A DNA stretch of 40,690 nt from a virus. The stretch is from positions 1 through 40,690 of IMG/VR virus record IMGVR_UViG_3300010885_068508. One strand, 5' to 3'. Positions within the stretch are counted from its first letter, which is position 1. Each line of letters begins with the position of its first letter. The notes under the pieces were generated by a model. That model was not told the DNA's origin. It saw only the letters and a program-made list of their open reading frames with translations, and made no database searches. A program made the position numbers and the translations under genes. Shown here one piece after another: positions 1,061-38,603 of the stretch.

Positions 1061-1327
1061 TTAAAATAAGTTTTTTTTGTTTTTTTTGTTTTTCCCCATT
1101 TCTACAATACTGAAAGATTTATCTAGATCTTTACCTCTTGGTTTTGGTTCTTTTATTATAGGTTCTTTGAACTCTAAGGTTTCCCCTTTCAAAGGATCTC
1201 CTTTAAGGGTAAGAGGAAATTTCAATTTAGGGGTTTCATCATCTCTAAGTTCATTTTCCCAAGAACCTGTTTTATCCTCTATTATAGAAGGATCTTTATC
1301 TGACAAAATATCTAAGGTCCAGTACAT
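1061..1327 (-). CDS. Small charged hypothetical protein overlapping the primase 3' end
   Basis: I do not recognise this 88-residue protein. It is rich in Lys, Glu, Asp and Pro, has no membrane segment, and ends in a very basic tail (KNKKNKKN before LF). Its start overlaps the last 32 bases of the primase in another frame. No later Met in the first two thirds offers a shorter start. The TAA is followed immediately by the ATG of the UvsY-like gene. The tight packing between two replication/recombination genes supports it being real. A role as a small nucleic-acid or protein adaptor is speculation. Confidence 0.55.
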   Translation of the reverse strand: MYWTLDILSDKDPSIIEDKTGSWENELRDDETPKLKFPLTLKGDPLKGETLEFKEPIIKEPKPRGKDLDKSFSIVEMGKNKKNKKNLF

Positions 1328-2357: not shown

Positions 2358-2370
2358 TTTAATTGGGATA

Positions 2371-2399
2371 AAAAAGGCAGCTTTAAAAAAGCTGCCTTT
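2371..2399 (-). terminator. Rho-independent terminator after the SSB gene
   Basis: On the minus strand, about 18 bases after the SSB stop codon, the sequence forms a 12-base-pair stem (AAAGGCAGCTTT against AAAGCTGCCTTT) with a three-base loop. The 3' arm runs into a U tract of six. The GGCAGC core is clearly more GC-rich than its surroundings. It ends transcription from the SSB side before the primase ATG at 2357. The plus-strand reading gives a less uniform U tract, so the main orientation is minus. Confidence 0.85.
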
Positions 2400-2416
2400 G
2401 ATTTATTTTTTATCTA

Positions 2417-3436
2417 TTAAAGATCTGCATAAAGATCATCCAGTGAAGATATTCCCCCCGATGAGCTAGTAGAAGAATCTACGGTGTTATCCGAAGATGT
2501 CTTCGTATTGGATGCTTCAGCATAGAAAGAATTAAAATCAGAAATCTGCTCAGTTGTATTAGCCTGAGAAGGTGGAGCAGATTGTGGTTGAGTATAAGAC
2601 TGAACTGGAGAGCTATAAGAATTGTTAGATGGAGTAGAAGGTGCAGAAGCAACTCCTCCGATAACTTCATTAACTAATCTTCCGTCAGGAATAGAATTTT
2701 TAATTACCGACATAACTCTTTGGGTTGTATTATCATCCCAATCTTTATAATCAAAAGAAGCTAAATTCTTAGGACCATTGTTTAGGTACTCTGTAATTTT
2801 TTTCATGTCTTCCGCGTTTCTTTCCATAGGAATTCCATCTATCTTAATAGGAGAAGGGTTACCAACAAAAGAACAAAGATCATAATTATTCCATTCGCCT
2901 ACTTTTCTAACTTGTAGTGCAAATTCTCTACCATTAAATAAGTCAAATGGATTCGAAGAATCACCGTATTCTGGTTTTAATTGTGCTTCGATCATATCAT
3001 TAAGTTTTTTACCGAACTTAAAGATCATAATTTTTCCTTCTGATTCAGGAGAGTTTTTATCCTGAACGATTTGAATCAAAGCGTAAAAATCTTCTTTTCT
3101 AGAGAAAGACTTAGCTAATTCTTGATCTGCTGCAGAATGAGAATTTTTAAGTTTCCAGAAAAGATCTTTTAGTATTGATTTTTTACCCACTGTAGAAGGA
3201 CAGTCTGCAGAAAATGATTCTCCAGAAACTGGATCATTTAAATACACATAGTACTTGTGGATTTTAGATTTAGCCGGATCTACCGGATTAGGTACGAAAC
3301 GGATTAGAGATTTATAAACCCCGTCTTTCCCGGTTTCAGGATAAGGTTTATAAAATTCCAAGTCCTTTTCAGTTCTCGAATTTACTTTGGTTACCAAAGA
3401 ATCCGCACTCAAATTAAAGATGTCCAAATTTTCCAT
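2417..3436 (-). CDS. Single-stranded DNA-binding protein, gp32-like
   Basis: This 339-residue protein matches T4 gp32 (301 residues) in layout: a polar N-terminus, a central DNA-binding core (about residues 25-235), then a Ser/Thr/Gln/Pro-rich linker (about 255-320) and a short acidic tail ending SSLDDLYADL. The core segments SLIRFVPNP, then KIMIFKFGKKLNDMI and the following NPFDLFNGREFALQV, correspond to the gp32 core. Gp32 coats single-stranded DNA in replication and recombination and recruits partners through its acidic tail. An oddity is that the gp32 zinc site is not intact: I see H60 and C79 but no C-x-x-C pair in the loop that follows. It lies between a RuvC-like gene and the primase and is followed by a strong terminator. 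Confidence 0.85.
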   Translation of the reverse strand: MENLDIFNLSADSLVTKVNSRTEKDLEFYKPYPETGKDGVYKSLIRFVPNPVDPAKSKIHKYYVYLNDPVSGESFSADCPSTVGKKSILKDLFWKLKNSHSAADQELAKSFSRKEDFYALIQIVQDKNSPESEGKIMIFKFGKKLNDMIEAQLKPEYGDSSNPFDLFNGREFALQVRKVGEWNNYDLCSFVGNPSPIKIDGIPMERNAEDMKKITEYLNNGPKNLASFDYKDWDDNTTQRVMSVIKNSIPDGRLVNEVIGGVASAPSTPSNNSYSSPVQSYTQPQSAPPSQANTTEQISDFNSFYAEASNTKTSSDNTVDSSTSSSGGISSLDDLYADL

Positions 3437-8933: not shown

Positions 8934-10619
8934 TTAAAAAGTAGGAGCGGTGTTTCCTGTTATTGTAAATTGATTAGTTGCTTCTAATACACCGCCTTCT
9001 CCTTTGCAGGTTTTCCAAAATATTCTCCCGTTAGGATTTGTTGGGCTTCCCACGTAAGCCCAAAATAAATCCACATAAGAACATGATGATAAAAAATCTA
9101 TATATACAAGTCTATTTTGTAAACCACCTATGCTCGTTTCATAAATATATGAATAAGCTATTCCTCCTATTTCACGAGTTCTTTGCATGTCATTATAATA
9201 AACCCTATATTCATTTCCTTCTCCTGAATAAAATAGGGGTTCAAACGAAGGTGTCGTAGCAGATGGTATAAATATATAACCATTGCTGGAAAGTGTTTGA
9301 TCTGTTGTAACTACTATCATATTGGAATTCCATGAAGAAACAGAAGAAAGATTTAAAATTCTATTATTAATGTCTACATAATCCGAATGTAAAATTTTAC
9401 TATTATTTCTTTTTGAATACGGGATAAATGATCCATAAAAGAAATCGCCAGGATTAGCAAAAACATTGTTTAATCTTTTCACGTGATATGAATAAGGTGC
9501 TCCAGTGGAACCAGCAGCAACCCCTCCGCTTGCACCGAAAACAGTTTGTTTATGGTTTCCAGAAGAAACCGAACCTAAAGGAAGGCCGTATAAAACAGAG
9601 TGACCGTCCATACCAGTAAAATCAAATACTCTAGAAGTAGTGGGATCTGAATTTACGGAAATTCCTCCGAAATAATTGAAAGTAGATCCTGTAGAAGGGG
9701 TTGAGCTTAATGTGTAAGATCCTAAAAACCCTAAATACTCAGATATTTTGGTTAAAGTTTTCGTGTATAGTTTAGATTCATTTACCCCAAAATTTAATGA
9801 ATTTATTATTATAGGACTTATCTGGGAATTACTTGCAATTAGGCTAATCCTATTATCCCCCAGCAAATTCAAATTTCCCTGCGTAGTTGACGAAAAAGAA
9901 TTTCCTCTTATAAACAAAGATCCTCCTAGGATAAGATCATCAGAAGAGATCTCAATATCTAGTAGGGAATTAATCGATAATTTACCTGGGCTTTTAAATA
10001 TAAGATCAGAAAGAGTTCCTGTATTTTTCCAATAGAAAGAAGGAGAATCTACAGTACTACTTCCATTTGATTTGGAAAAAGAGAAAATAGGAGTATCTAT
10101 TTGGTCATCAGTAGCTACTAATAATTTAGAATTATTAGGATTTACGTCTGATGCAGAAAAATAGGTATCACTTATAACTAAAGAAGTTTGATCAGGGGTA
10201 TAAGTAGAATTAAATCCTATAGCAGATTTATTCGTTAGACCCAAAGGCCCAACTATTCCTGGGTAAACTTCAAAATAATCGGAATTAAAAAGGGATAATC
10301 CGGTATAAGACCAAGAAGAGGAATCTCTCTCATAGATATCTCCTAGAGAAGAAGAATTATCAACCCAAAGATCAAATTCTTGGGAAGATCCTGTTGAAGG
10401 AACTGTTGTGCTTCTAAACCATTCAGAAGCTCTATCCCCTGTATTTCCGGTTCTCCCTATTTTTCCAGAAGGTCCTGGAATTCCTGTAGCTCCTTTCGGT
10501 CCGATATATCCTTCGTGACCTATAGCAAAAGAAAGAACCTGATTGAAGTTGTAATTAACTTTATCTTTTATCTCCTTTTCGGAGTCTCCCTGGCTAATAT
10601 ATTTGTTATTAAAATGCAT
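8934..10619 (-). CDS. Collagen-like fiber protein, paralog 3
   Basis: This 561-residue protein begins with a short helical region (EKEIKDKVNYNFNQVLSF) followed by ten Gly-X-Y triplets at residues 34-63. A W...LWVD segment follows, like the G-D-Y-W motif found after collagen-like parts of tail fibers. The middle (about 140-260) aligns by eye with the two upstream genes: LVISD, then KLLVATDDQI, FSFSK and PSFYW occur in the same order. The C-terminal half is unrelated to theirs. Collagen-like stretches in phage fibers form trimeric stalks. The divergent end would be the receptor-binding or partner-binding part, by inference. It starts 5 bases after the stop of paralog 2, from an A-rich leader. 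Confidence 0.7.
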   Translation of the reverse strand: MHFNNKYISQGDSEKEIKDKVNYNFNQVLSFAIGHEGYIGPKGATGIPGPSGKIGRTGNTGDRASEWFRSTTVPSTGSSQEFDLWVDNSSSLGDIYERDSSSWSYTGLSLFNSDYFEVYPGIVGPLGLTNKSAIGFNSTYTPDQTSLVISDTYFSASDVNPNNSKLLVATDDQIDTPIFSFSKSNGSSTVDSPSFYWKNTGTLSDLIFKSPGKLSINSLLDIEISSDDLILGGSLFIRGNSFSSTTQGNLNLLGDNRISLIASNSQISPIIINSLNFGVNESKLYTKTLTKISEYLGFLGSYTLSSTPSTGSTFNYFGGISVNSDPTTSRVFDFTGMDGHSVLYGLPLGSVSSGNHKQTVFGASGGVAAGSTGAPYSYHVKRLNNVFANPGDFFYGSFIPYSKRNNSKILHSDYVDINNRILNLSSVSSWNSNMIVVTTDQTLSSNGYIFIPSATTPSFEPLFYSGEGNEYRVYYNDMQRTREIGGIAYSYIYETSIGGLQNRLVYIDFLSSCSYVDLFWAYVGSPTNPNGRIFWKTCKGEGGVLEATNQFTITGNTAPTF

Positions 10620-10624
10620 ATTTT

Positions 10625-12274
10625 TTAAGGTGTAGCTCCATTAGTGTATAACTCTCCGCATTGAGGTGCTGATAAATTTAATCCGTAAGCCTGGTATAAT
10701 ACTTTAAACCAAATATCTGTACCCCCGGTTCCCCCTGCAGATCCGGATATATTCATTATTGTAAATTCTATTGTGGTTGCATCGATGGTCAAGTTTACTC
10801 TTTGATCCCCTAATGGAGGGACTGTATTTTTTGTATTTGATACATTTATCCCTAAATATCTAAATCCTATCGAAGGACTTGAGGAATGTACTCTGAAATT
10901 CACGTATTCAGAATCCTCTAATAAATTTAGCCATCCCCCATTTTCTCCAAAAGATCCCCCTGTTGCAGGACACCATAGGCATATTCCTCTAGTAGATCCG
11001 CCAACAGGGGGAGGATCTACATAAAAATCAAGACCCCTTGAAACATTAAATGAGGTGGAATCAGTTTCTCCGTTGAGAGCAACAGTGGGATTAAATATGA
11101 TATATCTTATCGTTGTAGGCTGTATGTACCCGGGATCTTCTAAAGGATGCAAGGGATAAACCACCTTATCAACCTTAAAATCCCCTTTTCCCGATATTTC
11201 TAATATGCTCGTTGCCGAATTTGTGGCTTTGAATAGAGTAGATCCAGATCTAGTAGATGGATATATCTCATCCATTTTATAGTAAAGATTTCCTGCATCA
11301 GGATTGGGGGTTACCAAATTCAAAGATGGCTGTGACCCAGTAGTTCCTGTAGTCTGTATGTCTAGGATAGTCCTAGTACTTATATTGGATGCAGAAGATG
11401 CTATGCTTATATTTTTAGACTTAAAAAGAATCGAACTTGATCCAGAATTTGCGGTTATATTAAGATTTCCATTAGAAGAACTTGAAGAATATAATCCATT
11501 TATAAATTTATTTATTCTATATTGATTTGGTGAGTAAGGTGCGGATTTTATTATAATAGAACCAGATAAAGATTTTAAATTAAAGTCTCCTCCCAGATTA
11601 AAATCTAGGGATTGGGGACATAAAAATCCTAATCCGTAATTCCCATTGCTCGAAGTAGGACCAGTAGTCCAAAAGAAAGAAGGTGTTTCCTGATTAAAAG
11701 AAGTTCCGTGATAAGGTCCTTTTGTAAATTCTAATAGCCTCCTTTCTGTTATCTGAGAATTAGTAGAAATCACCATTTTTGTATATTGGGGATTTGCTAT
11801 AGAAGATCCACTAGTAAGATAAGAATCACTAAGAACCAAAGTATTTAAATCCGGGTAAGGTAGAGATATGAAATATCCATTTTTAGAGGAAGTTCCTGTC
11901 TGGGTCTGTAAAGGCCCAAATTCTCTAAAAATATCAAGGCCATTTATATTGACCGAATATAAATCCCAAACCCCTGTAGAAGAATTGTAAATTCTAATCT
12001 CGTTATTAGAATTCGGATTCATCCAATAATCACCATTTAGAGGATTAGGCGGAGGAGTAATTAAAACAGTCCATATATTTCCTCTTTTACCCTGGGGACC
12101 AAAAGATCCGTTAGGTCCTTCAGATCCAGGATTTCCTGTTCTTCCCTCGGGTCCTATCTTTCCATAAGGTCCTCCTTCAAAAGAAAGTACTTGGCTGAAA
12201 TTAAAATTAGCCTTGTCCACCAAATTTTTCTGTGAATCCCCTTTTTCTAGTAATAATAATTTAAGTTCTTGCAT
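10625..12274 (-). CDS. Collagen-like fiber protein, paralog 2
   Basis: This 549-residue protein has the N-terminal helix motif DSQKNLVDKANFNFSQVLSF and eleven Gly-X-Y triplets at residues 35-67, then GDYWMNP. The middle region shares LVLSD, KMVISTNSQI, LEFTK and PSFFW with its neighbours. It then departs into a Gly/Ser/Thr-rich beta region and a C-terminal domain (about 380-549) not seen in the other two. Unlike most genes here it has a good ribosome-binding site (AGGAG) directly before the ATG, and a copy of the ATATATAA element overlapping the previous stop codon, so it may be made at a higher or separately controlled level. Confidence 0.7.
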   Translation of the reverse strand: MQELKLLLLEKGDSQKNLVDKANFNFSQVLSFEGGPYGKIGPEGRTGNPGSEGPNGSFGPQGKRGNIWTVLITPPPNPLNGDYWMNPNSNNEIRIYNSSTGVWDLYSVNINGLDIFREFGPLQTQTGTSSKNGYFISLPYPDLNTLVLSDSYLTSGSSIANPQYTKMVISTNSQITERRLLEFTKGPYHGTSFNQETPSFFWTTGPTSSNGNYGLGFLCPQSLDFNLGGDFNLKSLSGSIIIKSAPYSPNQYRINKFINGLYSSSSSNGNLNITANSGSSSILFKSKNISIASSASNISTRTILDIQTTGTTGSQPSLNLVTPNPDAGNLYYKMDEIYPSTRSGSTLFKATNSATSILEISGKGDFKVDKVVYPLHPLEDPGYIQPTTIRYIIFNPTVALNGETDSTSFNVSRGLDFYVDPPPVGGSTRGICLWCPATGGSFGENGGWLNLLEDSEYVNFRVHSSSPSIGFRYLGINVSNTKNTVPPLGDQRVNLTIDATTIEFTIMNISGSAGGTGGTDIWFKVLYQAYGLNLSAPQCGELYTNGATP

Positions 12275-12280
12275 CTCCTA

Positions 12281-12295
12281 TTTTTATATATCAAA
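12281..12295 (-). promoter_or_regulatory. ATATATAA element with AGGAG ribosome-binding site
   Basis: The minus strand reads TTTGATATATAAAAATAGGAG just before the ATG at 12274. The element overlaps the last codons and TAA of the upstream paralog. It is the clearest Shine-Dalgarno sequence in the window with a start codon at normal spacing. Confidence 0.45.
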
Positions 12296-13873
12296 GTAAA
12301 AAGAACCTCCGGAACCTCCATTAGAACCATATGCTAAATAATCTACGCTGGTCCCCCGTCCTGTTGCTCCCCTTGATATTACAAAATCAACCGAGGTAGC
12401 ATAAAAAGGAAGGGTAGCTACTGTAGTCATATTTGAATTATTTCTTCCGTAACCTATATATTTAAACCCACTTAATGTATAAGTAGAACTGGCCACAGGA
12501 TTTTGGCTGCAATATGCAGAAACCCTTATAGACTGGCCTCGGTCTAATCCTCCTGTTGCCCCCCATGAATAATCGGAATGTGAATAAACCCCAATTCCGC
12601 AATAGGAACTTGAATATGTCTGATTTGTATATGGATTAATTATTGCTATATTTCCCGAATTAAGGGGGAAAGGTCTAAATGTACTAGTACTAGTAGAAGC
12701 TGCGGGAGCAGATGTTCTTGCTGCTAAATACCAATATACTAAATTTCCCCCAACTTTTCCAGTTGCGCCTGGTATAGAACTAGGGTATGTTATTCCCCCG
12801 TCTACTTTATTAGTTTTTATTTTACCTTTAGTATCTATAAAAAACTGGGATTCTGAAGCAGTTGCTCCATTAGATTCCAGCATAACATTATACACAGAAT
12901 GGGAAAGAGTACTAAAGTCGTCGAATGTTCTTTCCGTCTTTAATGCTCCAGTTGCTCCGGAAGAAACATAAATACTAGGGGAAGATGAAGATAATGTAGG
13001 GGCAAGATAAATATTTCTTCTTGCGTGGGTAAATGTTACTCCAACATTTAAGTTTTGTGTTGCTATATTAGAATTTCCCAATGGAAAATTTAAATTTATC
13101 CCCCCAGTAGCACTTAGATTATAAATCCCATCGAAAGTAATTCCCGTTGCGGATTCCATAGTTATATCGGATGCTGTGATATCCATTCCTGCACTTGCCC
13201 CTATCGAAAATTTACCCCCCAATACATCTAGATTTAAATCAGAGCTGGCCGAAGATGGGCTTCCCCATGTAAAAATAGGGTGAGAAGAATAATCCGATAT
13301 AGAACCATCTTCTATATCGGATTTAGAAAATTCTAAAAGACCCCCGTCATTAACAGAAGTATCTGTAGAAATTTTAAATTTAGAAAGTTCTTTGTTTATT
13401 AGAGGAGCAGATTCTGGGGATTGATCACCAAGAACAAAAGTATAAAGAGAAGGAGAGTTTTGGTCCTCCGTTATTGAAGTTCCCGCGGATCCGCCTATAG
13501 AGGTATACGTAACATCTCTGAATAAAGTATTTTGTGTTGATAAATTATACCCAGTATACTGCCATCCAGAATCCGTAAATATATAAATTTTAGAAGTAGA
13601 TACCTCTACCCAGTAATCTCCTTCTACCGCATAGGTTCCAGTACCTCCCGGTTGGGAAGATCTAACAAACCATCTAGATCCCCTGGGACCAGTGATTCCT
13701 GAATTCCCATTTAATCCCTGTAGTCCTATAGCTCCATCACCTCCGGTAGGACCGATATTTCCTTGAATTCCCCCATGAAATTCTATTAGCTCATCGAAAT
13801 TGTTATTTAATTTACTAACAAGTTCGTTTTGACTATCCGAATAATTAAGGCCTTGTATATTAGTATTTGGCAT
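12284..13873 (-). CDS. Collagen-like fiber protein, paralog 1
   Basis: This 529-residue protein starts with a helix motif (DSQNELVSKLNNNFDELIEF) and eleven Gly-X-Y triplets at residues 35-67, followed by GDYWVEV. The shared middle shows FVLGD, KFKISTD, LEFSK and PIFTW. After that come Gly/Ala/Thr-rich repeats such as GATGALK and a C-terminal domain with many aromatic residues, ending GGSFYFDI. It is the first of three tandem relatives and begins 2 bases after the 1837-residue gene. It is probably a trimeric fiber attached to the baseplate through the shared N-terminal helix, by inference. Confidence 0.7.
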   Translation of the reverse strand: MPNTNIQGLNYSDSQNELVSKLNNNFDELIEFHGGIQGNIGPTGGDGAIGLQGLNGNSGITGPRGSRWFVRSSQPGGTGTYAVEGDYWVEVSTSKIYIFTDSGWQYTGYNLSTQNTLFRDVTYTSIGGSAGTSITEDQNSPSLYTFVLGDQSPESAPLINKELSKFKISTDTSVNDGGLLEFSKSDIEDGSISDYSSHPIFTWGSPSSASSDLNLDVLGGKFSIGASAGMDITASDITMESATGITFDGIYNLSATGGINLNFPLGNSNIATQNLNVGVTFTHARRNIYLAPTLSSSSPSIYVSSGATGALKTERTFDDFSTLSHSVYNVMLESNGATASESQFFIDTKGKIKTNKVDGGITYPSSIPGATGKVGGNLVYWYLAARTSAPAASTSTSTFRPFPLNSGNIAIINPYTNQTYSSSYCGIGVYSHSDYSWGATGGLDRGQSIRVSAYCSQNPVASSTYTLSGFKYIGYGRNNSNMTTVATLPFYATSVDFVISRGATGRGTSVDYLAYGSNGGSGGSFYFDI

Positions 13874-26241: not shown

Positions 26242-29200
26242 TTATTCTCTTTTTATTTTTCTATAAGTAGAATCTGGATTATCCGGTATAACTATTCCTG
26301 GACTAAATTTAGTTTTATTTTTATCCTGTATTTCTTTTTGTTGTTTAATTAGATCTTTTTTCAATTTTTGTCCCTGATAAGATCTGTCACTGAAAGGTTC
26401 ATCTACCCCGTAATTAACAGAATTTATAGGACCGGTTTTTCTTCCTGGGATCCTCATTTTTTTATGGTCTATTACTTTGATGAACCCATTTCCTGTGGTT
26501 GCATAAACATTTCCTTCTGAGTCTAAAACCTCATTATAAATAGTATATTCTCCTTCTTCAGTAAACGTATAGATAAAATAAGGTGAATATTTTATATTCA
26601 ATATTTCGTCTCCTGTAACTGAATTGGAAAGAACCCATTTATTTGTATTTTTACCATATATTTCAGAAGTATAATTATTAAATACTATAGTAGACATAAG
26701 AGGAACTTCAAAGGATCCTTGTTCTTTTACGTGGGAATCACTCCACACCCAAGGATCTGATCCTGGTCTCGATATTATCTCCCCTTCATTTATGCCTAGA
26801 TTCGGGGCATATTGTTTAATCAGATAAGAGAATCCGGTAGTAACAGGAATATCTATTATTGGGGGATCTCCAAAATCTATATAAGCAGTTAACCCTAATG
26901 AATTGAATCCAGAAAAGAATATATTAGAAGCCGCATCATTAGATACAGTAACGTCCCCGTTAAAATCTCCTATTGTTACCGTATCATTAACCCTGGAATT
27001 CTCATCGGTTTTTAATATCTTAACAGTATATGGGGTATCATAATTTTCATAATGGATAACGAATTGATCATTAGGAAGTTTTAATGTAGTTTTTAAATCT
27101 AAAGAGGAATTAGATCCAGTTACAGAGGGATAAAAAATACTTCTACATACAGTTTGTTCTGTTAGCTTTGCAGTTAAGAAATAAGTATTTCCTGTTTCTG
27201 CTATGAAATTTTTTCCAAAATAAGATCCAGAAGATCCAGAAGATCCAACTACAGTAGTTACGTAATAATTAGATTCATCTTTAGTTACCCCTATCTTATT
27301 CCCAGTGTTACCAAATGAATTCAAATAGAATCCAGTAGATCCTATAGGATTGCTAGTTATAGAAATATAAAAAGGAGAATTTGAAGACCCCGTAGGAGAA
27401 AGATAATTATTAGAAAAATAAAATCCTCCTGTTGCAGATCCTGTTATGACAACAGATTCCCCAAGATCCAAAGAATTTATCTCAGAACCTATTCTTCTCC
27501 ATCCACTAGATCCAGGTGTATTCGAATTATAATTAGCCTGAAGGGAATAATCTAGGTTATTTAATTTAACATAAGAAAGTAATCCAGTATATGCAGGATC
27601 TGATAGATAAGAATCTACAAGATAATTATCATTTGTTCGGTTCCATTCATTCTTAAGAGTAGATAGATCTGCAAAATTTCCAGAAACATTAGATTCTACT
27701 AGTAAATGGGTATGGTAATTTGTTAATTGTACAGAGGTCAAAGGAACTTCTTGATTTCCTGCCAGTATGTTTAGATTTTTAACTGGGAAATTTCTAAATC
27801 TGGTAACCCGGTAAGATGAATTTATACCTGAATTATAATCCCCTGTAATTCCGGTAAAAGAAAAATTATTTCCTAGATCCCTCTGTATTTCCGTAGTAAA
27901 TACTCCATATGAATATCCATCAGGATTTCCAGGAAAAGAATTCAGATTTTTAACTAAAGGATAAGTATAATTTGTCCATTCATAAAAATCTAAATTAACA
28001 CTTCCCCCTGTCAAAAAAGGAAATACACCAGGATTACCGTATTGGTAGCTAAGTCCTATAAAAAGACCTCCTGGTATCGAAGATATAGATGTTATACTGT
28101 AAAGAGCATCTGGCGAAGCTGTTATGCTTAGGACATTGGAAGTAAGCAATGATTCTAATAATGAAGTTTGGTTTGCCGCCAAATCATCAAAATAAGAAAT
28201 GTAAATACCATTAACGTAAGAAAAATTATTAGATACGGTATAACTAAGATCAAATTCTCCAGATGATATAGATACTCCTACACCTGCATTGTATGTCCAA
28301 GAACTAGATGCTAAGGAAGGACCAGTAGGTCCTAGAGGATCATATATCCAATCGTAGATTCCTGAAGTTATCCCGGGATAATTGATATTAGTAGCTCCGT
28401 AAGGTGCTCCGGTAACTCCATTTCCCGAAAATGCATTAGCTCCTTCCCAAGAATGCCAAACCCAAGGTCCAGATTCCATAAACCAATCATAAGATCCAGA
28501 AACCGATACCGTATTATTATCAGGACTAGGATCTAAAGAATCTATTCTAGTTCTATACCCTCTAAAAGGTAATATGCTATCAACGGAACCTGAATAATCA
28601 TAGCAAACTACAAATCCCATTTCCCCGTAAAAGCTAGAAGATCCAGCAGTTCCGCCAGAAGCTCCTATCGTAGGGTTTAGATTGTCAATAGTAGCTAAAG
28701 TTGAATCATTATAATATCCAAAAGAAACTTGGGATTCCCCAGAAATATATCCTCCTATTAGATATTTGGTTCCGAGATCTGTTTCTAATGAAGTCGAACA
28801 TGTAATCTTAACATCTCCTGATCCTCCTAGTGTTATCTGTGAATCCCATAAAGATTCCCCTATTTTTTCTCCTAAAACTTTTTCATCGTAGCTTTCTATT
28901 GGAGAATTACCCCAATAATATTGTTCTCCTGCTTTTCCGTCAGCGATGTCTTCTAAAGGGACAGTAAGAAATAAATTTCTAGGATCCAATCCCGGTAATT
29001 TTGAAGCTACGAATTCGCTATCATAAACTTGCCATTCGGGATAAGTCCATGTGTATTTATTCACTTTGGCAATAGGCGGAGCTCCTGTTTCTCCAGTTCC
29101 CCCCAGTGGAACTCTATAGGTAAAATTCCATCCCGTTGCACCTTCATTTTTAGAAGAAGCGTAGACGTGGGGTAAATCGTAAACGAAAGAGGAAAGATCA

Positions 29201-31473
29201 TTTAGACAAAGTATCCAAAGAGAATTCTCATATAAGGTTATATTTCCTTGTTTTGTTCCGGCTTCTATCAGTCCTATATCTAAAATATTATTATTAGGAA
29301 GATTTGAATTTAATGTATTTAAATTTATATGTGTAGTTCCATTAAAATGATAAAGACCTGTTCCTTGTGATAATTCTCCATCTCCTATTGAATAGAATAC
29401 ATGTCCATTTTCTCTGGATTTTACATAAGTAACTGGGCCAGCTGTTGGATAATTCCAAAATCTATTTCCGTCAAAAAAAGATATCCCTTGATCTGTTCCT
29501 ATCCAGAGATTCCCATTCTCATCAAAATCTAAAGTGTAAATATTATTGGATATTATTCCACTTGTACTAGTATTATAAACTCTTGCTTGTTTAACTATTT
29601 CTCCTCCGTCATTCAAAGAAAGAGTGCTAAGTATGCCAGGGGGTATTACCCAAAGTCCTTCGGTAGTTCCTAGGAAATATTTATATTTTTTCCCCCCGTA
29701 TCCCTTTGCTTTTATTTGGAATATATGGGGCCAAGTGTATTCAGCTAAGGTTTCGTTCCATTTTTCTATATTTTCATCATAGAAAAATAGTCTTCCCCCC
29801 GTAACCCCATCTATTCTGGTGTAAGCAGTTGCCCCTACCGTTCCTATTCCGTTCAGTGGATTTATGAAAGCTAAGACCTCACTCCCGTATGGGGAAGCAT
29901 ATATTAAAGATGTTTCATACAATAGGTTATCAAAAGTAGATATATCATAAGAATACCAGGATTCTCCTACTGTAACTTCTGATGTATCGAGTTTAAAAAC
30001 CAAAGGTGTACTTGGGGTTTGAGTACTGGAATTTAGCCTAATATTATAATTTCTGGTATTTCCCGCAAAGGTAGTAAAGTCTCCTCCTATAAGGATTTTC
30101 CCATCAGATTGTATCTCCATACCATAGACATCACCCGGTGAACCAAATCCTGGACTTATGGGGCTATAAAAATTGGAATCCCCTGTTCCATCTGAATTTA
30201 ATCTTGCTATTCTATTTCTATTGAATCCCCCGTTATCGTTAAAATCAGTAAAATCTCCTCCAACTATAATTTTTCCATCTGATTGTATTCTACTAACAAT
30301 GATTGTTCCATTCTGGAATCCTGATCCATCACCTGTACTAATCAGATTAGTGTAAAATTGGGTATCCTCTAAACCTGTATCGTTTAATCTAACTATTCCA
30401 GTTCTTGAGAAAGAGTTATATAGACTAAAAAATCCCGTGGCTATAATTTTACCGTCATTCTGTAAAGTTATCCCATAAACTGATCCATTAAACCCAGATC
30501 CATATAAAGATAGATTTGCATAGAATGCGGTATCCTCTATTCCGGAGGGATTCAGCCTTACTAGTCTTTGTCTAGAATTACCATTTAGGGAAACAAAATT
30601 TCCACCTATAATTATTTTTCCGTCGATCTGTTCCCTTATAGAATACGTAGTACTTGTATTATTAAATCCAGACCCTGTACCTGTACTTGTCAAATTAGTG
30701 TAGAATGAGGTATCCTCTGTTCCATCCGAATTAAGTCTTACTATTCTATTTCTAATATTTCCGTTAAAGGAACTAAAAGATCCCCCTATTAGGATTTTTC
30801 CATCCGATTGAACATATACCGAATAGACAAATCCATTAAATCCAGACCCTGTACCTGTACTTGTTAAATTAGTGTAGAATGAGGTATCCTCAGTTCCGTC
30901 TGAATTAAGTCTTACTAATCTATTTCTAGTATTTCCATTTAAAGTACTGAAACCACCCCCAATAAGTATTTTTCCATCCCCCTGGATTTTTATAGAATCC
31001 AGAGCAATCAGTGCATTGAATCCAGACCCTGTACCTGTACTTGTTAAATTAGTGTAAAATGGAATATCCTCAGTTCCATCTGAATTAAGTCTTAGTATAT
31101 AATTTCTAGGGGATCCGTTAAAATTAGAAAATTGTCCACCCATTACTATTTTTCCATCAGACTGGATTCCAAAACAGGATACGATATAGTCAAACCCGGA
31201 AGTTCTTTGATTATAGAAATTTACATCTTCGCTGTTGGCTACGCTTAAACCATTTGATGTCTGTGCTATACCTCCCCAGAGAATTTCTTTATCGTCTATA
31301 GATATAGATCTGGTGTCTAAATAATATGGGGATCCGCTTGGAACTGCAGAATTTAGGGAATCGTAATATTCCCATGATGTCCCGTTAAATTTCCTTAAAT
31401 CTTGTCCAGTTGCCCAAACAAAAGAATTGGAATCTAAATCTATCTGATTTATATAAATACTACTTCCAGGCAT
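26242..31473 (-). CDS. Giant beta-propeller virion protein (delta-60 / DUF5122 repeats), 1743 residues
   Basis: The N-terminal third holds seven copies of a repeat of about 55-62 residues, each with a core like IQSDGKILIGG.F, a short loop, R-N-R-x-x-R-L-N-S-D-G-T-E-D and FYTNL. Cores begin near residues 103, 163, 221, 283, 338, 396 and 454. These are delta-60 repeats (DUF5122), each forming a propeller blade, and seven would close a typical propeller. A second propeller-like region at about 560-760 has a Reg_prop-type unit (IYTLDFDENGNLWIGTDQGI), and a similar unit sits at the N-terminus (FVWATGQDLRKFNGTSW). The rest is beta-rich with G-T-G linkers, ending in a basic tail. It follows the gp7-like gene, so it probably belongs to the baseplate or a surface-binding fiber. 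Propellers often bind glycans or proteins. Confidence 0.75.
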   Translation of the reverse strand: MPGSSIYINQIDLDSNSFVWATGQDLRKFNGTSWEYYDSLNSAVPSGSPYYLDTRSISIDDKEILWGGIAQTSNGLSVANSEDVNFYNQRTSGFDYIVSCFGIQSDGKIVMGGQFSNFNGSPRNYILRLNSDGTEDIPFYTNLTSTGTGSGFNALIALDSIKIQGDGKILIGGGFSTLNGNTRNRLVRLNSDGTEDTSFYTNLTSTGTGSGFNGFVYSVYVQSDGKILIGGSFSSFNGNIRNRIVRLNSDGTEDTSFYTNLTSTGTGSGFNNTSTTYSIREQIDGKIIIGGNFVSLNGNSRQRLVRLNPSGIEDTAFYANLSLYGSGFNGSVYGITLQNDGKIIATGFFSLYNSFSRTGIVRLNDTGLEDTQFYTNLISTGDGSGFQNGTIIVSRIQSDGKIIVGGDFTDFNDNGGFNRNRIARLNSDGTGDSNFYSPISPGFGSPGDVYGMEIQSDGKILIGGDFTTFAGNTRNYNIRLNSSTQTPSTPLVFKLDTSEVTVGESWYSYDISTFDNLLYETSLIYASPYGSEVLAFINPLNGIGTVGATAYTRIDGVTGGRLFFYDENIEKWNETLAEYTWPHIFQIKAKGYGGKKYKYFLGTTEGLWVIPPGILSTLSLNDGGEIVKQARVYNTSTSGIISNNIYTLDFDENGNLWIGTDQGISFFDGNRFWNYPTAGPVTYVKSRENGHVFYSIGDGELSQGTGLYHFNGTTHINLNTLNSNLPNNNILDIGLIEAGTKQGNITLYENSLWILCLNDLSSFVYDLPHVYASSKNEGATGWNFTYRVPLGGTGETGAPPIAKVNKYTWTYPEWQVYDSEFVASKLPGLDPRNLFLTVPLEDIADGKAGEQYYWGNSPIESYDEKVLGEKIGESLWDSQITLGGSGDVKITCSTSLETDLGTKYLIGGYISGESQVSFGYYNDSTLATIDNLNPTIGASGGTAGSSSFYGEMGFVVCYDYSGSVDSILPFRGYRTRIDSLDPSPDNNTVSVSGSYDWFMESGPWVWHSWEGANAFSGNGVTGAPYGATNINYPGITSGIYDWIYDPLGPTGPSLASSSWTYNAGVGVSISSGEFDLSYTVSNNFSYVNGIYISYFDDLAANQTSLLESLLTSNVLSITASPDALYSITSISSIPGGLFIGLSYQYGNPGVFPFLTGGSVNLDFYEWTNYTYPLVKNLNSFPGNPDGYSYGVFTTEIQRDLGNNFSFTGITGDYNSGINSSYRVTRFRNFPVKNLNILAGNQEVPLTSVQLTNYHTHLLVESNVSGNFADLSTLKNEWNRTNDNYLVDSYLSDPAYTGLLSYVKLNNLDYSLQANYNSNTPGSSGWRRIGSEINSLDLGESVVITGSATGGFYFSNNYLSPTGSSNSPFYISITSNPIGSTGFYLNSFGNTGNKIGVTKDESNYYVTTVVGSSGSSGSYFGKNFIAETGNTYFLTAKLTEQTVCRSIFYPSVTGSNSSLDLKTTLKLPNDQFVIHYENYDTPYTVKILKTDENSRVNDTVTIGDFNGDVTVSNDAASNIFFSGFNSLGLTAYIDFGDPPIIDIPVTTGFSYLIKQYAPNLGINEGEIISRPGSDPWVWSDSHVKEQGSFEVPLMSTIVFNNYTSEIYGKNTNKWVLSNSVTGDEILNIKYSPYFIYTFTEEGEYTIYNEVLDSEGNVYATTGNGFIKVIDHKKMRIPGRKTGPINSVNYGVDEPFSDRSYQGQKLKKDLIKQQKEIQDKNKTKFSPGIVIPDNPDSTYRKIKRE
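30667..31095 (-). repeat. Near-identical direct DNA repeats inside the propeller gene
   Basis: Three blocks of about 70 bases start at 30667, 30841 and 31021 (spacing 174 and 180 bases). Each begins TCCAGACCCTGTACCTGTAC and differs from the others at only a few positions. The flanking repeats of the same gene are more diverged. The spacing equals 58 and 60 codons, so exchange between copies would keep the frame and change the blade number. Confidence 0.85.
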
Positions 31474-31524: not shown

Positions 31525-34500
31525 CTACACTGGAACCGAAGGAGGAGCCGGATAAGGGGAAGGAGAAGGAGAGAAACTCTCTATTCCTACATTAACCGGT
31601 GGAGAATCGCTATTAAAAGCCCCGCTCTCGTTTGGTATTGGTCTATAGTCATAATTTCCTATATGAGAATTTGAATTCGCATTCAACTCATTGGATATCT
31701 CTTGTATCGTAGACCCGGTAATTCCATAGAAACCTAAACTATAGATAGACGGATTAAAATTTTTGGTATCTGGAGGGGTAAGAATACCAGAGCTTACCGA
31801 TATCAAATCTCCTATACTTAAATTATGTAATTCAAATCCTCCTAGCCAATCGTTGTTAAATTCAAAATCGAACCACGAATGTGCATATCCATCTTCCCAA
31901 GTATTATTAAAGAATATATCCCAATTTAACCTTTTAGTTCCCCAAAATTTTAAATTTTCATTCGGATACGTATCACTAGATTCACTCCAGTATTCATATG
32001 TTTCTAAAGGACTTATCCCATACTCCAGAGTTGGATCATAATATGTGGTAGATAATAGTCCAGAAGTTGATACTGTCATTGGAGTTCCATTCTGGGTATC
32101 CCCTAATTCATCTGGAGCATGTATTATTATCGAGGTAGGATTAGTTGTAGGATCCGTACAATAAGCAAAATAATCAGGGTATGTTGTTAAATTATTTATA
32201 GAAGAAACCAAATAATTTGTGGTATTATATAATAATTCTCCAGATATAGTAGATCCTATAATAATTCCTCCTACGTTAACAGAAACAAATCCACTCCCTG
32301 TTATTAACTGGGAAGGATAAGCAGTTGGCGAAATTTGAAGTCTGTTAGGGGAAACCGCAGAAATTACTCCTGGCCATACCGATTGAAGAACTGTACTTAT
32401 TCTAATTTCGGTTGTCGATATTACAGTTACCTCCCAGCTTCCTGAAAGTTCAGGTATTGTGTTGGAAACGTAAACATAATCTCCATTGCTTAATCCGTGG
32501 ACAGATGCAAATGATATTCTAACGTATCCATATTGGGACGGAGTTATTTCCAAAGAGTATATTTCGTTTACAGTTAAAAAGGATTGGGCCAAACGGATTT
32601 CTCCGGTAGCTCCTACCGGATCTGTTTTAACTTTAACGTAAACGTCTTGTCCTTCCTCTGCCTTATTTCCATAAAATGCGAAATCTAAAATTTCTTTAGG
32701 CATTAGATTTACCATTTTGTCTTCGCTCTTCCCTTCCGCCGGATATTCCCATATAGATTCATATCCATCCCAACCTCGGTAGATATTTTCCCAGTTGTAG
32801 TATTCTATTTCTCTATATCGAGTCCAAGAACTCGCTTCCTCAGTTGCCCAGGATTCTAATTTTATCTTTTTAGGTTGAACTGTTAGATTCTTGTTCTTTA
32901 TCTTAGTAGATTTTGCGTTGAAGCCGTCATAGATGTTGCACGTGACATTAAAGTCTCCTGTGAAGGGGATAAAATGGGCTAGCTTATTAAAGTCAATTAT
33001 AGGTCCTCTAAATTCAAAATTATAAGGGGATCCATTCTGGGTTGCATCTTTATTTATTATCCATTCTATTTCTAGATAATTAGAAAAATCTATGTTTTTC
33101 CAATTCATTAGCCCATATCCCTGGTTGTTGGAAAATAATTCAAATCCCTCGAAAGTATAAACTAAATTATCAGAAGTAAGGAGAACATCATAAGTTCCAT
33201 TTGTATAGTTTGTATTCACAACAGTACCAGAATCTCCAGAAGGAATTTCTATAGTAAGTGTTGGACTTGATGTATACCCAGATCCAGGGGATAATATCGT
33301 AATGGTTGTTATTCTACTACCACTGATAACGGGTAAAAGAACTGCACCAAGACCTCCGCCGCCGGTAACTGTTATTAAAGGAACGGTAGAATAGCCTAAT
33401 CCCGGAACGTTTATAGTAACAGATCCTATTGTTCCCCCTGTTATTCCTGCAGTTAAAGAAGCAGTCTGTGGTTTAATTTCTACGAAATCGCCTACTTTAA
33501 ATGTTGGGAGATTTATTCCGCTCCAAGAAAAGTTCATTTCATCCCAATCCCATCGATCTATTTCTAATTCTAGGACTAACGGTGTTCCTATTGGAACTAT
33601 GTACGGTAGATTTGTTGAAGGATCTATATAAGAAGGGGGATCATATTTTCCATCCCCTAAAAGTTGGATTTTTCCCTCTTGCTTTAATTCATAAAATTGA
33701 TTTATCGAATCTATTAGACTTTCATTTTGGATAGAAGTGTAATTCTGCTGAAAATCTAATGGATTTATTATATTGCCTAGATCCGATATATCGGGAGGCA
33801 AAATATTTACGATTCCGTTTATATTAGGGTTTTGTGGGCAATAATAATAAACCGGAGTTATTTGTTGGGGATTTACATTCCAGATTATACTAGAAGATCC
33901 TGGGGTTGCTCCATTTCCCGTCAATCCTATAGGATCTTGCTGGGTAAAACCAGGGGATTCGGTTATATAAAAACTAAACCCTTCAGTGGAAAGATTAAAG
34001 TTATATGATTTTCCGATTACAACATTCAAAGGGGGATTAGGACCTGAAGGACCTGTTATTCCTAAATCCGGAAATCCAGTAAAATACAAAGCACTTCCAG
34101 TTCCGCCAAGAACATTTACCCCTATTTCATAATTATTATAATAAACACTTGGGGTTTGTATAGGAAGAGCATCTGGTTTTATATTAAAATTCCTTAAATC
34201 TTCTATGTAAGCTAAATCTGGGTTTACGCGGAAATCGAAATAATTACCGGATTTTATATCTTCAACCTCAAGAAAATCTACCCATGATCTTGTATTGACT
34301 ACGGAAAAATAAACTCCTTCCCCTGTTATATCTACTATCCTTGCATTAAGAGGTAAATAGTCTCTTTTTAGTTTCTGTTTTAGCCCAAATAATTTTATTA
34401 AGACTTCTTCCTGTGTAAATTGAAAAGCATCAACGACTACTGGATATCCATATTCATCGGTTTCTGATGTCACCTTATTTAGATCATAATATAACCCAAA

Positions 34501-35955
34501 TAAAGATGTTTTTTTGTATGTATTGCTAGGAACCAGGGTATTTTGGGATGAGACATCAAGAACATAATTACCTTCTGCATCTGGTCCATAGGTTTGTTCC
34601 ATCCTGTATTTACCAGAATTTGGATTATCCAGAACATCTTTTATTTGATAAGATTGGGATCCTGTCTGTAACCTTTGTGTTTTTATTTCATTTAAGGCTA
34701 TTTGATTCTTTAAACCAGGGGAAGTTAAATCTTCTTCTCCTAAAAAACTAAGATTTAACCAATATTCTTTTATCCTTAAATCCTGATATCCGAAAAATTT
34801 AAGAGCATTTATAAGTCCTTTGTAACTTCCTATATACGGGAATATTTCTTCCCCTGCTAAAAGTAGCTCTTTTCTCTTTTCGTTTATTTCTTCGTAGTTT
34901 GGTAGAGGTTCCTTAGGATCATGATTTCTTAGAATTATAGAATCCTCATTATTAAAAGCTCTTCCCAAGTTATTTGCTAATACCTTTAGCCTTTCGTCTT
35001 CTGCTATTATTTGTCCATAGAAATTAACTTCCAATATTTTACTTACATTAGCACCGGTAACCCCTGCACTTATGTCTTCTATGATAAGTTTTCTTTCGTA
35101 TACCTCTTCTGATTCTTCTGGACCATTTAACCCTATGTTTACAGAAAGAGATTTGGATTCAGAAGGTGTAAAGGTAGGACAATTTAAAGATCCATTGGAG
35201 TAGTAATCGGAAGAAGATGCTATTATATCATTATAAACTATATTCGGATAAGAAACTATTAAAGGTTGTCCGTCGCCTCCTTCTAATTCATCCAATATTT
35301 TATAAGTGAATAATATCTCGGTTACGTCTATATTACCATAAGAATTATTGTACCATCTGGTTCTCCATTTTCCTGAAGTGGCTCCAGTAGCTAAAGTTCT
35401 TGGGTAACTATAATCAATTCCTCCAGAAGGACCAATTATTTGCTGGGTTATGAATATTTGTTCGTTTTCGTAAAGACCAGCCGAAACAGGATCAAAATAA
35501 ATATTCCCTGTGAAATATCCGCCCGGTCTATTTTTATAAGATATAGTAAAAGATATGGTATTATCTAAACTAATTATATTCTGGCCAATAAAATTATTTA
35601 CCGGAATTGTAATAAGAATTCCCCCTGGTGTAACTACACAAGAAGTAACTTTTCCTTTGAATTGGCTACCCTGTATTACTCTTCCATTTAAATAAATTTC
35701 AGATCCTCGGGATAAGAAATAATCGATTTCATTTCCAATTGAATTTAAATTGAAAAAATTGACATCATTCGTGTTAAACTGAAAGGTATAGTTACCTCCA
35801 GATTGCTGGAAAATAACATTTCCGTTAGAGGTAGAAACAGAACTAGTCTTATATAAGAATTTTGAATCTAAAGGGCTAGGACCTGTAGGTCCGATATATT
35901 CGAAATTTAAGGGATTCCCCCTTTTATTAAAAAATCTAAGTTTTAAATCCGCCAT
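31525..35955 (-). CDS. Baseplate wedge protein, gp7-like candidate, 1476 residues
   Basis: The gene follows gp25-like, gp6-like and a small gene, the place of T4 gene 7 (1032 residues), whose product links the wedge to the outer baseplate. The N-terminal 320 residues are beta-rich. A helical region at about 332-403 (FNNEDSIILRNHD, then FPYIGSYKGLINALKFFGYQ) resembles the P2 gpI/tail protein I type of wedge segment. At about 840-905 there is an inserted pair of glycine-rich repeats (VPGLGYSTVPLITVTGGGG and SPGSGYTSSPTLTIE), a module common in phage structural proteins. A Trp/Tyr-rich region lies near 1040-1070, and the C-terminus is Pro/Ser-rich (SPSPSPYPAPPSVPV). The gp7 assignment comes from order, size and the helical motif. 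Confidence 0.55.
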   Translation of the reverse strand: MADLKLRFFNKRGNPLNFEYIGPTGPSPLDSKFLYKTSSVSTSNGNVIFQQSGGNYTFQFNTNDVNFFNLNSIGNEIDYFLSRGSEIYLNGRVIQGSQFKGKVTSCVVTPGGILITIPVNNFIGQNIISLDNTISFTISYKNRPGGYFTGNIYFDPVSAGLYENEQIFITQQIIGPSGGIDYSYPRTLATGATSGKWRTRWYNNSYGNIDVTEILFTYKILDELEGGDGQPLIVSYPNIVYNDIIASSSDYYSNGSLNCPTFTPSESKSLSVNIGLNGPEESEEVYERKLIIEDISAGVTGANVSKILEVNFYGQIIAEDERLKVLANNLGRAFNNEDSIILRNHDPKEPLPNYEEINEKRKELLLAGEEIFPYIGSYKGLINALKFFGYQDLRIKEYWLNLSFLGEEDLTSPGLKNQIALNEIKTQRLQTGSQSYQIKDVLDNPNSGKYRMEQTYGPDAEGNYVLDVSSQNTLVPSNTYKKTSLFGLYYDLNKVTSETDEYGYPVVVDAFQFTQEEVLIKLFGLKQKLKRDYLPLNARIVDITGEGVYFSVVNTRSWVDFLEVEDIKSGNYFDFRVNPDLAYIEDLRNFNIKPDALPIQTPSVYYNNYEIGVNVLGGTGSALYFTGFPDLGITGPSGPNPPLNVVIGKSYNFNLSTEGFSFYITESPGFTQQDPIGLTGNGATPGSSSIIWNVNPQQITPVYYYCPQNPNINGIVNILPPDISDLGNIINPLDFQQNYTSIQNESLIDSINQFYELKQEGKIQLLGDGKYDPPSYIDPSTNLPYIVPIGTPLVLELEIDRWDWDEMNFSWSGINLPTFKVGDFVEIKPQTASLTAGITGGTIGSVTINVPGLGYSTVPLITVTGGGGLGAVLLPVISGSRITTITILSPGSGYTSSPTLTIEIPSGDSGTVVNTNYTNGTYDVLLTSDNLVYTFEGFELFSNNQGYGLMNWKNIDFSNYLEIEWIINKDATQNGSPYNFEFRGPIIDFNKLAHFIPFTGDFNVTCNIYDGFNAKSTKIKNKNLTVQPKKIKLESWATEEASSWTRYREIEYYNWENIYRGWDGYESIWEYPAEGKSEDKMVNLMPKEILDFAFYGNKAEEGQDVYVKVKTDPVGATGEIRLAQSFLTVNEIYSLEITPSQYGYVRISFASVHGLSNGDYVYVSNTIPELSGSWEVTVISTTEIRISTVLQSVWPGVISAVSPNRLQISPTAYPSQLITGSGFVSVNVGGIIIGSTISGELLYNTTNYLVSSINNLTTYPDYFAYCTDPTTNPTSIIIHAPDELGDTQNGTPMTVSTSGLLSTTYYDPTLEYGISPLETYEYWSESSDTYPNENLKFWGTKRLNWDIFFNNTWEDGYAHSWFDFEFNNDWLGGFELHNLSIGDLISVSSGILTPPDTKNFNPSIYSLGFYGITGSTIQEISNELNANSNSHIGNYDYRPIPNESGAFNSDSPPVNVGIESFSPSPSPYPAPPSVPV

Positions 35956-36500: not shown

Positions 36501-38225
36501 TTATTTATTTATTACAGATTGTCGGGTAGTCATATTCAATTGGTTATTGAAATTAACAGGAACAGGTAATCCCTGAACAGTTATATTTATAGGACCTAAG
36601 CTTCCTGTTACCGGGCTGACAGTATAATTGTTTCCATCGAGATCAGTCCATCCTCCCCTAAAAATCACCAATTGGTTTATTCCGATTATTATATCACCAA
36701 AACTATCTATGGAAGATGATTGATAATTTATAGTCACTCCAGGACCTGCAGTATTCTGTAAACCTATTAATGCTTCTTGATCTTCTTGGGATAGAAATTC
36801 CACATATACCGAATCTACCCCAGCTACAGATTCTATTATTGCAACCATATCAGATCTTGGTATTTTGTCTCTTCTTTTTAGATTTAACATGTAATCTGAT
36901 ATCTTATTTCTTATCTGTTGTTTTACAGTGCTGGGATCGAATCCTACGAATGTAGTCATATCTATATTCATGACGAATTTCTTAACTATAGGATCAACTA
37001 TTTGAACCACCGTGGTTGCTATCATAGATCCTGAGTCTTCTATCAGATTCATTATCCTAGCTTTTTGAGAAGACGTAAGTATAAAGTTCTGAATAGGAAC
37101 ACTAAAATAATCCTGGTTTGAAGCTAAATTCAAAGTGATATCAGGAACTAAATAAATGTAAACAACATTATCATCATCCAAATTATCATCATCGAAAGTA
37201 GAGTATGCTTGTATTTGGGAAAATATTGCTAGCTTATTTAAAAATATCTCATAGCTTTGGGCATTTGCAAAAACAAAGGCTCTACTTGTTTTTGGTGCAA
37301 CTATTCTTATCAAAGATGTTGCGTCTGGATCTGTACCGAAATCTGGATCTAATGAATTAACTATATTTAAATATTGATTTAAATCTAGAGATGCTCCATA
37401 TAAATCTGTTCCACTGCCAGAGAATTTCCAAGTAAGGGGATTGTTTTGTGTGGAATAAACATTTCCTTTTATTCCTAGGTTAGTTAGAGATTCTACCCGG
37501 ATTTTAGATCCTGGTTTAGGTATTTGTCCAAAGAAAGAATTACCAAAATAAACATCGATCCCATTTGAAATCCCACTCTTGATAATAAATCCTTTTGCGT
37601 TAAGAGGAATATCATAGAATGAATCATATCTTCTCCATCTTTCTTCATTAACAAAAACATCCACATAGAATTGATCTATATTTTGTCCATTTATAGAAGG
37701 AACATTAAAACTCAAAAGAGATGATCCATCCGAAGTAAAATTACTAGAAGCAAAAACCCCTTGAACTACTTTAAATGTTTGAGGCTGGGATTGTGAAGAA
37801 AGCGGGATTGTTACTGTATCAGAAGGAATAATCAGGGTATACATTTGACCATTTTGTTGATTTCTGATCTGAGTATTTCTGTTGATTATAACACTTCCCC
37901 CTCCTGCTTGAGTATTAGAAGAATTCCAAGATACAACAACTTCACCCTGGGAGGCTGTAGATCTTTTAGGGTCGTATCCTGATATTCTTGCAAGACTTCT
38001 TACCGAATAATCTCTGGTTGCTTGTTCTATATTTAATTCGGTTATGGAATCTTCTATGAAATAAAGAATAAGCTGGGATATATTCTGAAAAACAAAGGTA
38101 ATTTGTCCCCAAGCAGAAGCTACAGTAAAAAGGTTTTTACTTTGGGAATAGGTTTTGGTAATAAAAGAATAGGTACTAGAAAGAAGACCTGAGATTAATA
38201 TATTATTCTTTTTATAAATATTCAT
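36501..38225 (-). CDS. Baseplate wedge subunit, gp6-like (Baseplate J family)
   Basis: This 574-residue protein (T4 gp6: 660) has the features of the gp6/Baseplate-J group that forms the continuous inner ring of contractile-tail baseplates. The N-terminal helices contain the common ...YFIEDSITELNIEQATRDYS segment (core IEQATRDYSVRSLA), followed by ISGYDPKR. A beta-rich middle domain comes next. The C-terminal part has the typical helix-strand unit: VKQQIRNKISDYM, then RRDKIPRSDMVAIIESVAGV and DSVYVEF. It lies directly after the gp25-like gene, as in T4, with 3 bases between them. The gene ends one base before the next start. Confidence 0.8.
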   Translation of the reverse strand: MNIYKKNNILISGLLSSTYSFITKTYSQSKNLFTVASAWGQITFVFQNISQLILYFIEDSITELNIEQATRDYSVRSLARISGYDPKRSTASQGEVVVSWNSSNTQAGGGSVIINRNTQIRNQQNGQMYTLIIPSDTVTIPLSSQSQPQTFKVVQGVFASSNFTSDGSSLLSFNVPSINGQNIDQFYVDVFVNEERWRRYDSFYDIPLNAKGFIIKSGISNGIDVYFGNSFFGQIPKPGSKIRVESLTNLGIKGNVYSTQNNPLTWKFSGSGTDLYGASLDLNQYLNIVNSLDPDFGTDPDATSLIRIVAPKTSRAFVFANAQSYEIFLNKLAIFSQIQAYSTFDDDNLDDDNVVYIYLVPDITLNLASNQDYFSVPIQNFILTSSQKARIMNLIEDSGSMIATTVVQIVDPIVKKFVMNIDMTTFVGFDPSTVKQQIRNKISDYMLNLKRRDKIPRSDMVAIIESVAGVDSVYVEFLSQEDQEALIGLQNTAGPGVTINYQSSSIDSFGDIIIGINQLVIFRGGWTDLDGNNYTVSPVTGSLGPINITVQGLPVPVNFNNQLNMTTRQSVINK

Positions 38226-38228
38226 TTT

Positions 38229-38603
38229 TTACGTTATTAATAATGTAACAATAGGGCTTAAACCCGAATTTGAATTAAATTTAAAATCTAATGTTGCTAT
38301 GTCTCTATTAGTTCCTAAGTAAAATTTTAATTCGTATGTTCCCCCCAATTTTTCGAATTCAGGTATATATGCTCTTATATTATTTTGAACCTCTTTTCTT
38401 ACTGCTGATTCCGATAAGTTCATATCGTAGATGAGAGATTCTAAATCTAGACCAAAACTAGGATCTCCTAATACTTCTCCTTTTCTAGTAAATATCATCA
38501 TTTTGATTTTTCCTACACAAGCTTCTAAAGGATCTGTTACTTCTAACTGATTCTCTTTGTAGTTAGGATCTTCTGGATCTTTATTATAAATTTCTCTCAG
38601 CAT
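38229..38603 (-). CDS. Baseplate wedge subunit, gp25-like
   Basis: The length of 124 residues fits the gp25/GpW family (T4 gp25: 132). The diagnostic segment is present: a strand with MMIFTRKGEVLGDPSFGLDL followed by ESLIYDMN, then a helix EVQNNIRAYIPEFE, and closing beta strands (TYELKFYLGTN, IATLDFKF). Gp25-like proteins join the baseplate wedge to the sheath and are conserved in contractile injection systems. It starts after a 53-base gap with an A-rich leader and a promoter-like element, and is followed by the gp6-like gene, the classic order. Confidence 0.88.
   Translation of the reverse strand: MLREIYNKDPEDPNYKENQLEVTDPLEACVGKIKMMIFTRKGEVLGDPSFGLDLESLIYDMNLSESAVRKEVQNNIRAYIPEFEKLGGTYELKFYLGTNRDIATLDFKFNSNSGLSPIVTLLIT

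Follow-up and report, generated by a model that had tools for sequence, protein, structure and literature searches.

Why does a gene that lies among the tail and baseplate genes of a virus carry a run of delta-60 repeats, and what might such a module do there? The gene encodes a protein of 1743 residues in the IMG/VR record IMGVR_UViG_3300010885_068508, a stretch of 40.7 kb (40,690 nucleotides) that was analysed whole and is here called the window. An earlier note on this DNA had read the repeats as a propeller in a baseplate-region protein. Here we report that the delta-60 block is, judged from an alignment of homologous sequences, a clean insertion into a turn of a second, host propeller, a nested position that the earlier note had missed; the folds of both propellers are predicted. 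As a naturally occurring propeller within a propeller, whose blade number is six or seven among close relatives, the protein may be useful for work on propeller evolution and design.

Delta-60 units and cap

The seven motif matches start at residues 106, 166, 224, 284, 340, 399 and 457, with spacings of 60, 58, 60, 56, 59 and 58 residues, as the earlier note had described (seven repeats about 58 residues apart). Profile searches of the kind that it had suggested agree, with seven matches far above the cut-offs: PF17164 (DUF5122) matches the 1743-residue protein in seven stretches with an E value of 8.9e-77 and 253.5 bits (cut-off 27), and TIGR02608 (delta_60_rpt), also in seven stretches, with 1.3e-49 and 165.9 bits (cut-off 76.5). 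At the level of sequence, the match to the delta-60 family is far beyond chance. All seven units lie within this gene, and a scan of the 40.7-kb record found no delta-60 matches outside it. The exact core IQSDGKIxxGGxF occurs in units 1, 6 and 7 and is varied in the other units.

The repeats proper occupy residues 97–488, and the module including its N-terminal cap occupies residues 72–488 (Table 1); the position first given for it, 29990–31230, is slightly shifted from the module at 30010–31260. In both alignment and model, the cap (SEDVNFYNQ) supplies an element absent from unit 7, and it probably closes the propeller ring. Supplying an end element from the other terminus is the usual way of closing a propeller ring. 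The same seven-unit register and the cap recur in independent, unrelated seven-unit modules.

Table 1. Features of the 1743-residue protein, its neighbours and a related insertion (window positions unless a contig is named)
Feature	Position	Strand	Basis
1743-residue baseplate-region protein: host propeller with nested delta-60 propeller (predicted), then long C-terminal region	26242..31473	-	intact ORF; syntenic homologs in IMG/VR
Residues 1–71: blade 1 and strands A–B of blade 2, host (Reg_prop-like) propeller	31261..31473	-	56-sequence alignment; predicted strands 50–59 and 64–72
Residues 72–488: inserted delta-60 propeller module (predicted fold)	30010..31260	-	window and L001 only; AF2
N-terminal cap, residues 80–94 (NSEDVNFYNQRTSGF), resembling the repeat end (DGTEDTSFYTNL...GF)	31192..31236	-	alignment with independent modules; predicted helix
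Delta-60 unit 1, residues 97–156	31006..31185	-	motif, alignment
Delta-60 unit 2, residues 157–214	30832..31005	-	motif, alignment
Delta-60 unit 3, residues 215–274, 78% identical to unit 2	30652..30831	-	motif, alignment
Delta-60 unit 4, residues 275–330, counterpart of L001 unit 3	30484..30651	-	unit comparison
Delta-60 unit 5, residues 331–389, counterpart of L001 unit 4	30307..30483	-	unit comparison
Delta-60 unit 6, residues 390–447, counterpart of L001 unit 5	30133..30306	-	unit comparison
Delta-60 unit 7, residues 448–488, without last element, counterpart of L001 unit 6	30010..30132	-	unit comparison
Residues 489–765: host propeller, strands C–D of blade 2 and blades 3–7	29179..30009	-	predicted strands; weak Reg_prop match; Foldseek to Reg_prop sensors
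Residues 766–1743: conserved C-terminal region	26245..29178	-	aligned in relatives
Neighbouring 1476-residue protein, kept beside the 1743-residue gene	31525..35955	-	local matches to baseplate-wedge PHROGs
gp6-like baseplate wedge protein	36501..38225	-	phrog_219, E 6e-31
gp25-like baseplate wedge/sheath initiator	38229..38603	-	
Ycf48/PSII_BNR-like propeller in blade 3 of the L064 scaffold	L064:6379-7320		Pfam, phmmer

Insertion into a predicted host propeller

Homologs of the whole protein are found in 56 viral contigs. Their alignment places the insert where an eight-residue turn would otherwise join strands B and C in blade 2 of a Reg_prop-like seven-bladed propeller. Only the short turn is present in 54 of the 56 aligned sequences (window included), among them sister phages about 75% identical, and these insert-free homologs carry WxGVAQGPTAGxNxxAVF at the place of insertion. 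The loop measures 417 residues in the window protein, 350 in the contig L001 and 6–11 in the other homologs. Predicted strands define seven host blades, with the insert between strand B (residues 64–72) and strand C (residues 490–496) of blade 2; the host propeller was modelled with low confidence (a mean pLDDT of 57), and this blade assignment therefore rests on the predicted strands together with the sequence.

Searching with the 880-residue model, Foldseek returned Reg_prop two-propeller periplasmic sensors (BT4663, 4a2l; BT3049, 3v9f) and PorZ as the best matches, with E values of about 1e-15 and whole-model TM-scores of about 0.2. Unlike those sensors, the window protein is a phage protein in which no sensor domains were detected. 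The Reg_prop family match at residues 639–661 scores 18.4 bits, below the cut-off of 20.4 (18.4 to 19.1 over the searches made), and we therefore denote the domain Reg_prop-like only, for its resemblance by fold match.

Predicted fold of the insert

We modelled residues 72–488 with AF2, using an alignment in which 28 further viral modules share the register of the window module, and obtained a pLDDT of 89.6 and a pTM of 0.90. In every unit the model shows three well-defined strands, and a short helix falls on the DGTEDTSFYTNL segment; a helix at module residues 13–16, in the cap, mirrors those at each repeat end. Confidence is high at both ends of the model. Among solved structures, the best Foldseek match is CylK (E 8e-14 to 1e-12, TMq 0.52–0.57), whose C-terminal domain is seven-bladed, followed by Reg_prop sensors, streptogramin lyase, Photorhabdus lectins and YCF48. 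TM-scores against solved propellers are moderate, at 0.4–0.6; in BFVD the top match reaches a TMq of 0.71 over 419 columns. With full-length matches to the closed, seven-bladed CylK, the insert is predicted to be a seven-bladed beta-propeller forming a closed ring, the fold that the earlier note had expected a structure prediction to give. A phmmer search of the insert against the PDB found no match, and a profile of the insert found mainly designed symmetric proteins there.

History of the insertion

In a tree built with the insert columns removed, the window and L001 group together (SH-aLRT 99), with the insert-free L002, L007 and L015 as their sister group. A single gain is thus the simplest history, and on this tree the gain is shown to be recent. 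Neighbouring genes keep the same order in the window, L001, L002 and L007 and are 71–90% identical, apart from one partial match of 66%. As it is absent from most close relatives, the insert looks like an exchangeable surface module. A foreign base composition was looked for and gave no signal (GC 35.3% in the insert against 34.4% in its flanks).

The nearest matches to the insert are viral (68% identity, then 49–54%), with one bacterial secreted protein at 48%, so that direct capture from a bacterium and transfer between phages leave the same picture. The proposal that a module had been captured therefore holds in so far as the module arrived by insertion and hardly any homolog has it, and loses its direct bacterial source, for which one genome scan gave bacterial relatives of 48% and 34%, too few to decide.

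The scaffold has received a second kind of insertion elsewhere. In L064, which belongs to a distant clade, the B–C turn of blade 3, equivalent to the delta-60 insertion site but one blade further on, holds about 310 additional residues. They resemble a Ycf48/PSII_BNR propeller, with a Pfam match below the cut-off (E 8.5e-5, 22.4 bits against 27) and phmmer alignments over the whole length to Ycf48 structures (E values of about 0.02). Because the two carriers' positions lie far apart on the tree, and propeller family and site both differ, the insertion in L064 and that in the window and L001 are most likely independent.

Blade number and selection

L001, the sole other carrier, has six delta-60 units. 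Units 4–7 of the window correspond one to one to units 3–6 of L001 (71–83% identity), and units 1–3 of the window and 1–2 of L001 are more alike within their own protein, or nearly so, a pattern characteristic of local duplication or loss of blades. Changes of blade number by local amplification among close relatives have been reported (Pereira and Lupas, PMC9218822); the words 'phage' and 'inserted' are absent from the main text of that paper, whereas the change seen here sits in a nested phage module. Seven had been put forward as the usual number for a closed propeller, and the window does have seven, but the count is not fixed: since the only other carrier has six, a seven-bladed ring is either dispensable or altered in L001. 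Elsewhere, the closely related phage proteins of L035 and L027 have five and seven delta-60 units, L035 being without the first two through natural loss or assembly collapse.

Between the window and L001, dN/dS is 0.10 for units 4–7 and 0.07–0.09 for the rest of the gene. Values of about 0.1 indicate purifying selection, which shows that the module is translated and used. Within units 4–7, 15 of 24 sites have changed in the innermost strand (strand A) and 34 of 190 elsewhere, a contrast with a Fisher p of 1e-5 that comes from a test chosen post hoc, once the pattern had been seen, and from cells that are not independent. Across 440 viral units, variation over the 49 columns peaks at the x of GGxF; position 5 of the inner strand is another of the most variable positions. 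Such variation fits a changing ligand pocket at the central channel.

Proposed function

We think it rather probable, though well short of certain, that the insert is a self-contained, exchangeable seven-bladed receptor-binding propeller carried on the outward B–C turn of a conserved scaffold; both its outward display and its receptor binding are what we infer. The scaffold would keep its fold and present the inserted propeller on its surface, and this propeller would act alongside the phage's tail fibres by binding a receptor, either a glycan or a surface protein. Individual lineages would acquire, drop or exchange such modules, with duplication or loss of blades altering the blade number. 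Beta-propeller lectin domains serve as receptor-binding parts of contractile injection systems, in eCIS fibres (PMC12923769); there they stand in fibres with collagen-like shafts, whereas the present insert sits in a baseplate-region scaffold.

More tentatively, at somewhat less than an even chance, the scaffold may be a display platform in these large phages: the equivalent B–C turns of adjacent blades would accept complete propellers from more than one family, a delta-60 one in blade 2 and a Ycf48-like one in blade 3, as exchangeable receptor-binding cassettes, so that host range could change without a change in the tail fibres. If true, this would give contractile-tail phages a second site, besides the tail fibres, at which to vary host recognition. 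The receptor-binding idea is testable in natural present/absent pairs (the window and L001 against L002, L007 and L015).

The strongest competitor, which we hold to be unlikely but worth real weight, is that the insert serves as spacer or stabiliser through protein contacts inside the baseplate, with no receptor bound. Propellers are generic scaffolds for protein interaction, a proven receptor-binding relative is lacking, and purifying selection would fit any structural role; that most homologs do without the insert could also suit an ornament, yet its absence from 54 of 56 sequences despite conserved neighbours makes it dispensable for assembly. The changes moreover cluster in the innermost strand and not on the outer faces, and L064 has a propeller of a different type in the next blade.

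An enzymatic insert, modifying the host surface as a polysaccharide lyase, a glycosidase or an enzyme of the alkylating type, seems improbable to us. The best solved match is indeed a propeller enzyme, CylK, and structural matches extend to streptogramin lyase, GH74 enzymes and DFPase, but these likenesses are at fold level (8–15% identity), no enzyme family model scores above its cut-off, and no single distinct site is seen in the near-symmetrical repeats.

We give very little credence to the idea that the repeats form an extended arm, whether an open solenoid or another fold that does not close into a ring. A unit number that varies, seven here and six in L001, would come more easily to an open array, yet closed propellers with varying blade number are documented (PMC9218822), the confident AF2 model and top matches to propellers only point the other way, viral modules sharply favour seven units, or 14 when in tandem, and the cap complements the shortened last unit. 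Least probable of all is misassembly as the source of the insert or of its unit number, for although all data are metagenome contigs and repeats can collapse or recombine during assembly, two independent contigs share the insertion site while differing by 0.08 dN and about 1 dS, the reading frame is intact, the flanks are syntenic on both sides, and at the DNA level the units diverge by about 20% or more, so that short reads should be able to separate them.

Delta-60 modules in other viruses

Delta-60 repeats had been described as mostly known from bacteria, a view not supported by one scan that found modules in 68 viral contigs, in many different phage proteins, nor by a viral protein in BFVD named 'Delta-60 repeat'. 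In 38 of 71 non-redundant viral modules exactly seven units are detectable, and in two more 14 are, weak or truncated units lowering some of the other counts. Some of the proteins (in L026 and L094) match tail-fibre PHROGs; a tail role is at most putative for the majority of modules outside this lineage. Three successive genes in L081 (L081:3820-9950) each hold a seven-unit module, and phage proteins in L120 and L132 have numerous DUF285 repeats joined to a delta-60 propeller.

The window module has the same LNxDGTxD and QSDGKIxxGGxF signature as known delta-60/DUF5122 propellers (TIGR02608, PF17164). It differs in being nested in a baseplate-region propeller, whereas a secreted-looking bacterial protein (L037:4055-7222) has two delta-60 modules in array, with a FYTNLGTGF motif as in the phage modules. 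Proteins of uncultured Caudovirales (BFVD A0A6J5M436, 'Delta-60 repeat', and A0A6J5NBZ2; PHROG 5490) share fold and repeat family; they are annotated as uncharacterized or by repeat name, and no tie to the present scaffold was seen. A literature search found nothing under 'delta-60 repeat' and, for DUF5122, a modelling paper only.

Genomic setting

The earlier placement of the gene in a baseplate region stands: the gp25-like and gp6-like baseplate-wedge genes lie only a few genes away on one side, tail-fibre-like paralogs lie on the other, and from this position the product would be a virion protein. In relatives, the C-terminal region gives weak, sub-threshold PKD matches. The virus is probably a large phage of Bacteroidota, a host suggested by a neighbouring 733-residue protein related to proteins of Flavobacterium, Tenacibaculum and Prevotella phages. 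Among named phages, the whole protein matched only through its delta-60 region, in two Stenotrophomonas phages, and a tblastn search with the insert-free L002 protein found no match.

Three adjacent tail-fibre-like paralogs (561, 549 and 529 residues; phrog_3904 matches) occupy 8934–13873 of the window. In related phages of 434 and 430 kb (G008 and G009), homologs of the first (8934–10619) are longer than it and contain delta-60-like units, which in G008 also occur in a collagen-like gene elsewhere. Primase-like and single-strand-binding-protein genes (1296–3436) adjoin the structural genes of the window.
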